NCBI GenBank assembly: GCA_003223255.1
Contig: QHYJ01000102.1
Location: 33,235 to 66,318 of the forward strand
Reading direction: 5' to 3'
Length of the DNA stretch: 33,084 bases
Source of the DNA: Acidobacteriota bacterium
Lineage (GTDB): Bacteria > Acidobacteriota > Terriglobia > Acidiferrales > UBA7541
Part shown: positions 19,792 through 21,400 of the stretch, piece after piece
How the letters are laid out: each line of letters starts with the position of its first letter
Position numbering within the stretch: the stretch's first letter is position 1
Notes under the pieces: model-generated
What the model was told of the DNA's origin: nothing
Database searches by the model: none
Seen by the model: only the letters and a program-made list of their open reading frames with translations
Position numbers and translations under genes: made by a program

Positions 19792-20193
19792 CTAGTGCTG
19801 GGCGGCGGCAGCGGGCTGCGCGAAGGTGACGAAGTGCCCGCCCGGATCCTGGACGGCGAACTCCTTCATGCCGTAAAACGCGGTGCGCACCGGCATGACC
19901 ATGCGCACATCTTTCATGGCGGCAAGAACAGCGTCGAGATTGTCGACCTCCATGTAGAGATAGGTCGGCCCCTTGCGCGCCTCGGAGGCCATCCCCGCGG
20001 GAGCGTCCTTCTCCACGCTGGCGTAGGTTTGGTACATCACTTCGACGGAGCCCTTCTGAAAAATCACGAAGCCGAGCTTGCTGCCGTCGGGAACTTCGAC
20101 GGCCTTGGTGAATCCGAGACGGTCCACCCAGAAGGCAATGAGCGGCTCGATTTCCTTGACCAGCAAGACCGGGGTGATGCGTTTAACGTGCAT
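19792..20193 (-). CDS. Glyoxalase/bleomycin-resistance (VOC) family protein
   Basis: 133 aa vicinal-oxygen-chelate protein with two beta-alpha-beta-beta-beta modules. The N-terminal half is ITPVLLVKEIEPLIAFWVDR, then LGFTKAVEV; the C-terminal half includes TYLYMEVDNLDAVLAAMKDV and FAVQDPGGHFVTFAQ. The Glu and His that typically bind metal in this superfamily are partly present (E in YMEVDN, H in PGGHFVTF), so metal-dependent catalysis or a binding role are both possible. It is read away from the cdd1-like gene from a shared regulatory region with a 19-bp perfect inverted repeat. Confidence 0.88.
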   Translation of the reverse strand: MHVKRITPVLLVKEIEPLIAFWVDRLGFTKAVEVPDGSKLGFVIFQKGSVEVMYQTYASVEKDAPAGMASEARKGPTYLYMEVDNLDAVLAAMKDVRMVMPVRTAFYGMKEFAVQDPGGHFVTFAQPAAAAQH

Positions 20194-20253
20194 GGGCCGT
20201 TTCTCCGGGGCTCCTTGGCGTGTCGTGTGGGGCCCGCCTGGGCCATCCTGTCC

Positions 20254-20282
20254 TTGACCTGGCAGCTAGTCTAATTTAGACT
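20254..20282 (+). promoter_or_regulatory. Promoter of the cdd1-padR unit
   Basis: TTGACC at 20254-20259, a 17-bp spacer and TAGACT at 20277-20282 match the sigma-70 pattern (5/6 and 4/6). The -10 box lies in the right arm of the 19-bp inverted repeat. A start about 7 bases later would leave a short leader containing AAGGAG before ATG 20306. Confidence 0.55.
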
Positions 20283-20284
20283 AG
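20266..20284. promoter_or_regulatory. Perfect 19-bp inverted repeat, probable operator
   Basis: CTAGTCTAATTTAGACTAG has 9-bp perfect arms around one central base. It covers the -10 boxes of both divergent promoters, so one dimeric repressor could silence both. The PadR-type regulator encoded at 20732-21400 is the natural candidate. Confidence 0.7.
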
Positions 20285-20295
20285 TGGAAAGTCAA
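20268..20295 (-). promoter_or_regulatory. Promoter of the glyoxalase gene
   Basis: On the minus strand TTGACT (20295-20290), a 16-bp spacer and TAGACT (20273-20268) form a sigma-70-like promoter whose -10 box is in the left arm of the inverted repeat. It mirrors the plus-strand promoter. Confidence 0.5.
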
Positions 20296-20305
20296 GGAGA
20301 TTCTT

Positions 20306-20704
20306 ATGACCCAGAAATCGCAGGCCCGGGATGGGATCCTTTCCGGCAGCAGAGGAAGCCTTCGGCCCGCCCGGCAAAGTCGGCGGCGCCCCCGGAGGGA
20401 CGCCGTGCACTCGAGGTCGCCGAGGTCGGCTCAGCCGCGGCAGCTCCCGGATTTGCTTTCCATCGGGCCGACGATGCTTCGCCATTTCGAGATGCTCGGA
20501 ATCCACAGCGTGGCACAGCTGGCGAAGCAGGAGCCGCACAAGATGTACGAGAGGCTGAACCGCAAGACGAGACAGCGGCAGGATCCATGCGTGCTGGACA
20601 CGTTTTGCGCGGCGGTAGCGCAAGCGCGGAACCCGCGATTGCCCGCGGAGCAGTGCGAGTGGTGGTACTGGAGCCGAAAGAGAAAATCGACGGCGCACAG
20701 CTGA
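20306..20704 (+). CDS. Cdd1-like (pathogenicity locus) helix-hairpin-helix protein
   Basis: 132 aa. The C-terminal 85 residues match the Cdd1/pathogenicity-locus family: LPDLLSIGPTMLRHFEMLGI (a helix-hairpin-helix), HSVAQLAKQEPHKMYERL, RQDPCVLDTFCAAVAQA and the terminal CEWWYWSRKRK. The family is small, widespread and of unproven function; the HhH suggests nucleic-acid binding. The first 47 residues are Arg/Ser-rich and do not look like the family, so the true start could be further in. ATG 20306 is favoured by AAGGAG seven bases upstream. It is followed 27 bp later by padR, with the glyoxalase gene divergent upstream. Confidence 0.78.
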   Translation: MTQKSQARDGILSGSRGSLRPARQSRRRPRRDAVHSRSPRSAQPRQLPDLLSIGPTMLRHFEMLGIHSVAQLAKQEPHKMYERLNRKTRQRQDPCVLDTFCAAVAQARNPRLPAEQCEWWYWSRKRKSTAHS

Positions 20705-20731: not shown

Positions 20732-21400
20732 ATGACGAGGCTAAGATTAGCTGCTCGAGCGCGCGCGTCCAGCAACGAGAAGGCAACCCCACGAACGCGC
20801 GCGAGAAAAAAGGAGGCACTCACGACGCCGGATCTGGTGCTGCTGAGCTTGCTGGCCGAGCGGCCCATGCACGGGTACCAGGCAAATGCGGAACTGGAAA
20901 GACGAGAGATTCGAGACTGGGCGGCGATTTCGCGTCCCCAAGTGTATTACTCGCTGGAAAAGCTGGCGCGCACGGGATGGTTGCGGAGGTTGGAGACCGA
21001 CCAACCAGCGGCGGGGCCAGAGCGCGATACCTTCGAAACCACGGAGAAGGGCCGCGAAGCGCTTGCAGACGCGCTCGAGCGAGAGGAATGGACGACGCAC
21101 CGCGACCACCCGGCTTTTCTGACCTGGCTGGCGCTCTCCTGGCAGGCGCGGCCCGGCGTTTTTCGTAAGCAGTTGAAGAAAAGGCGAAAATTCCTGCTAA
21201 AGGAACTGGCGAGAGAAAGAAAAACGATGCATGCGATTTACGCCGAGGTAGGTCACAGGTTCCACGAGGCGGTGTGGATGGTGGGCTTGATGATCGATCA
21301 GATTCGAACGGAAATACGCTGGACGAGGCAACTGGAGCGCGGATTGTCAAGAAGAGCGCGGGCAGTCAATACCGTGTGCGCAGAACGATGGCCCAAGTAA
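20732..21400 (+). CDS. PadR-family transcriptional regulator
   Basis: 222 aa. An N-terminal basic stretch (about 1-28) precedes the PadR winged helix: TTPDLVLLSLLAERPMHGYQ, then ISRPQVYYSLEKLARTGWLR and ETTEKGREAL. The C-terminal half is a long helical region (FRKQLKKRRKFLLKELARER), matching the Vir-like C-terminal dimerisation domain (PadR subfamily 1). AGAGGA lies just upstream of ATG 20732. It is probably co-transcribed with the cdd1-like gene and may control that operon and the divergent glyoxalase gene through the 19-bp inverted repeat. Ligand unknown. Confidence 0.9.
   Translation: MTRLRLAARARASSNEKATPRTRARKKEALTTPDLVLLSLLAERPMHGYQANAELERREIRDWAAISRPQVYYSLEKLARTGWLRRLETDQPAAGPERDTFETTEKGREALADALEREEWTTHRDHPAFLTWLALSWQARPGVFRKQLKKRRKFLLKELARERKTMHAIYAEVGHRFHEAVWMVGLMIDQIRTEIRWTRQLERGLSRRARAVNTVCAERWPK

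Follow-up and report, generated by a model that had tools for sequence, protein, structure and literature searches.

The window, by which we mean the whole analysed stretch of 33,084 nucleotides from contig QHYJ01000102.1 of a soil bacterium of the Acidobacteriota, contains a gene for a glyoxalase-fold protein that faces away from two genes encoding a Cdd1 family protein and a PadR-family regulator:

19792..20193, minus strand: voc, VOC/glyoxalase-fold protein of 133 aa (PF00903, E 7e-8)
20306..20704, plus strand: cdd1, Cdd1 family protein of 132 aa (PF11731, E 5e-22)
20732..21400, plus strand: padR, PadR-family winged-helix regulator of 222 aa (PF03551, E 3e-11)

All three products score above the cut-offs of their family profiles: the VOC protein with 33.3 bits against PF00903 (cut-off 20.6), the Cdd1 protein with 78.4 bits against PF11731 (cut-off 25.5) and the N-terminal winged-helix domain of PadR with 43.7 bits against PF03551 (cut-off 27). 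The predicted model of PadR, a monomer prediction with a mean pLDDT of 79, has two long C-terminal helices of high confidence (residues 143-173 and 179-207), which may correspond to the helical dimerisation domain of PadR-family regulators. The solved folds nearest to it are PadR-family regulators, namely Rv0047c, Rv1176c and the PadR of B. subtilis, and its best sequence match in the PDB is AphA. For Cdd1, no solved relative was found by sequence. Among 56 voc orthologs, at least 20 (e.g. L117, L119, L120, L123, L134, L154) have a signal-peptide-like N-terminus, which suggests an exported protein in these cases; the VOC protein of the window appears to be without one.

Between voc and cdd1 lies a 19-bp perfect palindrome, CTAGTCTAA-T-TTAGACTAG, with two 9-bp arms around a central T, and it is surrounded by a second inverted pair and by promoter-like elements on both strands:

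20252..20258, plus strand: outer arm CCTTGAC, paired as an inverted repeat with 20291-20297, read directly
20254..20259, plus strand: -35 element TTGACC of the cdd1-padR promoter, 17 bp ahead of its -10
20266..20284, no strand: operator palindrome CTAGTCTAATTTAGACTAG, conserved form CTAGTCT-N5-AGACTAG, candidate PadR site
20268..20273, minus strand: -10 element TAGACT of the voc promoter, in the left operator arm
20277..20282, plus strand: -10 element TAGACT of the cdd1-padR promoter, in the right operator arm
20290..20295, minus strand: -35 element TTGACT of the voc promoter, 16 bp ahead of its -10
20291..20297, minus strand: outer arm GTCAAGG, overlapping the cdd1 Shine-Dalgarno and the voc -35, read directly
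20294-20299: cdd1 Shine-Dalgarno AAGGAG, overlapped by the outer arm GTCAAGG

The initial annotation had placed a single palindrome between the glyoxalase gene and cdd1-padR, and a search with CTAGTCTAANTTAGACTAG at up to three mismatches confirmed this, the only match in the window being 20266-20284 (none in 100 shuffles). No other perfect palindrome in the window has arms of 9 bp or more with a centre of 0-1 bp. Under a first-order Markov model, 0.59 palindromes of this kind are expected per window. Symmetry by itself is therefore weak evidence, and we take 20266-20284 to be a real site because of its conservation in relatives rather than its rarity. The promoters that had been described as facing both ways are present as well; each of the two promoter-like sites scores 9/12, and none was found in 50 shuffles of the 251-bp region. 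As a sequence layout, the conserved operator thus overlaps its own promoter-like elements. The outer inverted pair CCTTGAC/GTCAAGG, which takes in both -35 elements and the cdd1 Shine-Dalgarno, had not been noticed before; GTCAAG is seen again in most relatives, at a variable distance from the palindrome.

For comparison we collected 60 padR loci, of which two (L121 and L157) are cut at the contig start, leaving 58 with upstream DNA. By record title the loci belong to the Terriglobia and Blastocatellia within the Acidobacteriota, with one acidobacterial locus, L137, titled Betaproteobacteria, probably a mislabelled bin. Absence of the palindrome from relatives, which the initial annotation had named as an observation that would speak against its proposal, was looked for and not seen: CTAGTCT-N5-AGACTAG, with at most two changes, closely precedes padR or cdd1-padR in every one of the 58 testable loci. 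Across 59 sequences including the window, the 12 half-site bases TAGTCT and AGACTA are essentially invariant and the centre is AT-rich and variable; the flanks of the site hold about 0.1 bit. In L160 (3961-3997) and L163 (3940-3976), padR is preceded by two adjoining operators at a distance of 18 bp from each other, and the outer bases of the second are altered.

The gene content of these loci shows what the site travels with. Ten loci keep the site and padR with no adjacent cdd1 (e.g. L156, L168, L170, L173). Two others (L167, L174) have cdd1 on the voc side, with the site still between voc and padR, and in L172 another glyoxalase-family gene (2282-2632) replaces voc, divergent to padR across the same operator. 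Five divergent voc-cdd1 pairs that are without padR (L176-L180) have no palindrome, the best match having 4-5 mismatches in 14 positions; the partnership of voc and cdd1 thus exists independently of PadR. Because the site follows padR and is absent from the padR-less voc-cdd1 pairs, PadR probably binds it and probably acts on both units.

The two promoters fare differently among relatives. Apart from the operator, the best conserved feature on the padR side is a TTG at a constant distance of 17 bp ahead of TAGACT (its first T is found in 48 of 58 loci), and the right operator arm thus seems to contain the -10 of the cdd1-padR promoter; in many relatives, however, the letters of the plus-strand -35 coincide partly with the complement of the voc Shine-Dalgarno, which confounds this conservation and weakens the case. 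For voc, a TTGACA-like -35 and a TATTCT-like -10 at a spacing of 16-18 bp are seen in about 38 of 59 loci; this -10 ends just before the palindrome, so that voc transcription would start inside the palindrome. In the window, just 6 bp separate the palindrome from GTCAAGG and the voc -10 lies inside the left arm, which makes the strict promoter symmetry particular to this window. The earlier description of a symmetric promoter with one -10 in each arm thus applies to the window but not to the relatives, where as a rule the voc -10 comes immediately ahead of the palindrome.

At the level of whole genomes, we scored the motif within one mismatch in a family sample of 89 genomes, 29 of which have an ortholog of the PadR of the window. 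It is present in 28 of the 29 padR-positive genomes versus 5 of the 60 padR-negative ones (Fisher p 6e-17, uncorrected for relatedness, the sampled genomes being related and the counts therefore not independent). In the one padR-positive exception, G018, the motif has two changes in its outer bases. A thirtieth padR match, in G007, is a fragment with in-frame stops, and the motif copy of that genome lies between gcvT and gcvH. As for the four other padR-negative genomes with the motif, voc is cut at the contig edge in G014, the locus runs off the contig in G033, and the matches in G003 and G072 look like chance hits. A sample of 396 genomes of the phylum includes 4 with padR, and each of these has the motif ahead of the gene, at a distance of 28 to about 470 bp (28-101 bp in the three where no cdd1 comes in between). 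Matches with one mismatch occur in 13 of the 392 others, whereas matches with none are confined to padR-positive genomes. In most genomes there is one copy, at padR.

Further copies were found in one clade of the genus. A wider regulon, which the initial annotation had expected to surface through more palindromes in the genome, did not emerge: further copies in the window's own genome are few and are located behind stop codons. Two genomes, G001 and G019, have about 20 further copies each (e.g. L097:1824-1866, L101:2961-3004, L103:3000-3018, L104:2947-2965). With gene ends taken from a codon-score gene caller, 44 of 48 intergenic copies, which are not all independent since those of G001 and G019 are partly orthologous, lie at most 45 bp 3' of a stop codon, versus 26-29% of random intergenic positions. 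We considered the dispersed copies as a promoter regulon and rejected this on account of their position just behind stop codons. Twelve of the 48 supply the stop codon of the gene from their own CTAG, convergent gene pairs are over-represented at the copies in G001 and G019, and copies often occur in tandem pairs about 25 bp apart. Between kch and qor, such a tandem pair begins exactly at an otherwise conserved stop codon in three genomes, while 27 others with the same gene order are without the pair; a search for a simple repeat insertion here did not demonstrate a target-site duplication. Since the dispersed copies are limited to part of one genus, they are derived from the operator or have converged on it. 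That PadR gained a second, genome-wide role in this clade, binding the approximately 20 operator copies, often between convergent genes, and so forming a roadblock or boundary where transcripts end instead of switching promoters, is a speculative reading that we consider unlikely.

Taken together, the palindrome is very probably the operator of PadR, through which voc and cdd1-padR would be controlled jointly by autorepression and co-repression. The initial annotation had proposed PadR as the regulator of both units, and this is strongly supported by the comparison of loci, with the site at all 58 padR loci that have upstream DNA and at none of the five padR-less pairs; the stress or detoxification regulon and the ligand control that it had also proposed find no such support. 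Binding itself, as well as repression, ligand control and the physiological role, we infer. The two TAGTCT half-sites, with about 11-13 bp between their centres, would be read by a PadR dimer in successive major grooves. Once bound, it would cover the spacer and the -10 of the cdd1-padR promoter, leading to autorepression, and either the voc -10, as in the window, or the voc start region, as in most relatives, leading to co-repression. Loss of binding, presumably upon binding of an effector, would release both units together. That PadR covers both promoters is suggested by the position of the site and by known PadR-family repressors. Findings that count against this model include the unlikeness of the operator to the published PadR motif and the copies that one clade has behind stop codons, which one would not expect of a repressor with a local role only.

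These findings also bear on three other explanations. The palindrome could be bound by another regulator, either a global factor or Cdd1 itself, with padR a bystander; Cdd1 has been described as a helix-hairpin-helix protein and adjoins the site, and copies dispersed elsewhere in a genome would fit a global factor. This is improbable in view of the ten loci that keep site and padR with no adjacent cdd1, of the padR-less voc-cdd1 pairs that have no site, and of the motif being a single copy at padR in most genomes and essentially absent from padR-negative ones. About as little probability attaches to the idea that PadR, at this site, activates voc or both units instead of repressing them. The PDB names AphA a gene activator, and relatives have the site downstream of the voc -10; yet the site overlies the spacer and -10 of the cdd1-padR promoter as well as the voc start region, positions typical of steric repression.

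The dispersed copies, with up to about 20 repeats behind stop codons in one clade, often as tandem pairs, raise the question of whether a mobile or REP-like repeat came to lie between these genes by accident. This we regard as highly implausible, as the padR-linked copy spans two classes, is the single copy in most species, keeps its position relative to padR and is universally present in relatives that keep padR, whereas the dispersed copies, being confined to part of one genus, are the derived state.

The reading of the palindrome as the PadR operator matters in several ways. To our knowledge, few regulators have been mapped in Acidobacteriota, and here comparison alone assigns a candidate operator to a previously uncharacterised PadR subfamily of this phylum. 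It ties a VOC protein and Cdd1, both of unknown role, into one predicted switch. The spread of the palindrome to the 3' ends of genes in one lineage offers a case for how operator-like repeats multiply, and the same lineage lets one ask whether a local repressor can acquire a genome-wide role. In the open-access literature we found nothing relevant on the motif, on PadR with a glyoxalase, on acidobacterial PadR operators or on Cdd1.

With respect to known systems, a divergent arrangement of repressor and operator is in itself ordinary, but the sequence of the site looks new for the PadR family. The published PadR operator is ATGT-N8/10-ACAT (PMC3506622, PMC5050560); this inverted repeat is not what is conserved here, where the conserved form is CTAGTCT-N5-AGACTAG, which points to a PadR subfamily with its own site. 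LmrR and other regulators of the ATGT-N8/10-ACAT type (PMC3506622, PMC5050560), among them the B. subtilis PadR whose operator complex has been solved (PDB 5x11), are dimeric repressors at their own and a neighbouring promoter, a likeness that is predicted for the present system. The target of LmrR is a drug transporter, in contrast to the VOC protein and Cdd1 here, where the ATGT/ACAT repeat is absent. The acidobacterial PadR paralogs of TIGR03433 (padR_acidobact) share the winged helix and the phylum, but with 30.5 bits the PadR of the window stays below the cut-off of 101.8 and is thus not a member. Rv0047c (PDB 8jxk) and Rv1176c (8ioi) of Mycobacterium tuberculosis, the nearest solved folds at 17-20% identity, have a long C-terminal helical domain like the one predicted in the model. 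Lastly, cdPadR1 of Clostridium difficile R20291 (PMC5050560) is likewise a PadR-family winged-helix protein; it binds inverted repeats around an AT-rich core in its own promoter, as is predicted for the present system. Its half-sites, TACT/AGTA, are spaced by 11-12 bp, and about 200 sites are predicted for it, whereas the site described here has the half-sites TAGTCT/AGACTA around a 5-bp centre and usually occurs once per genome.
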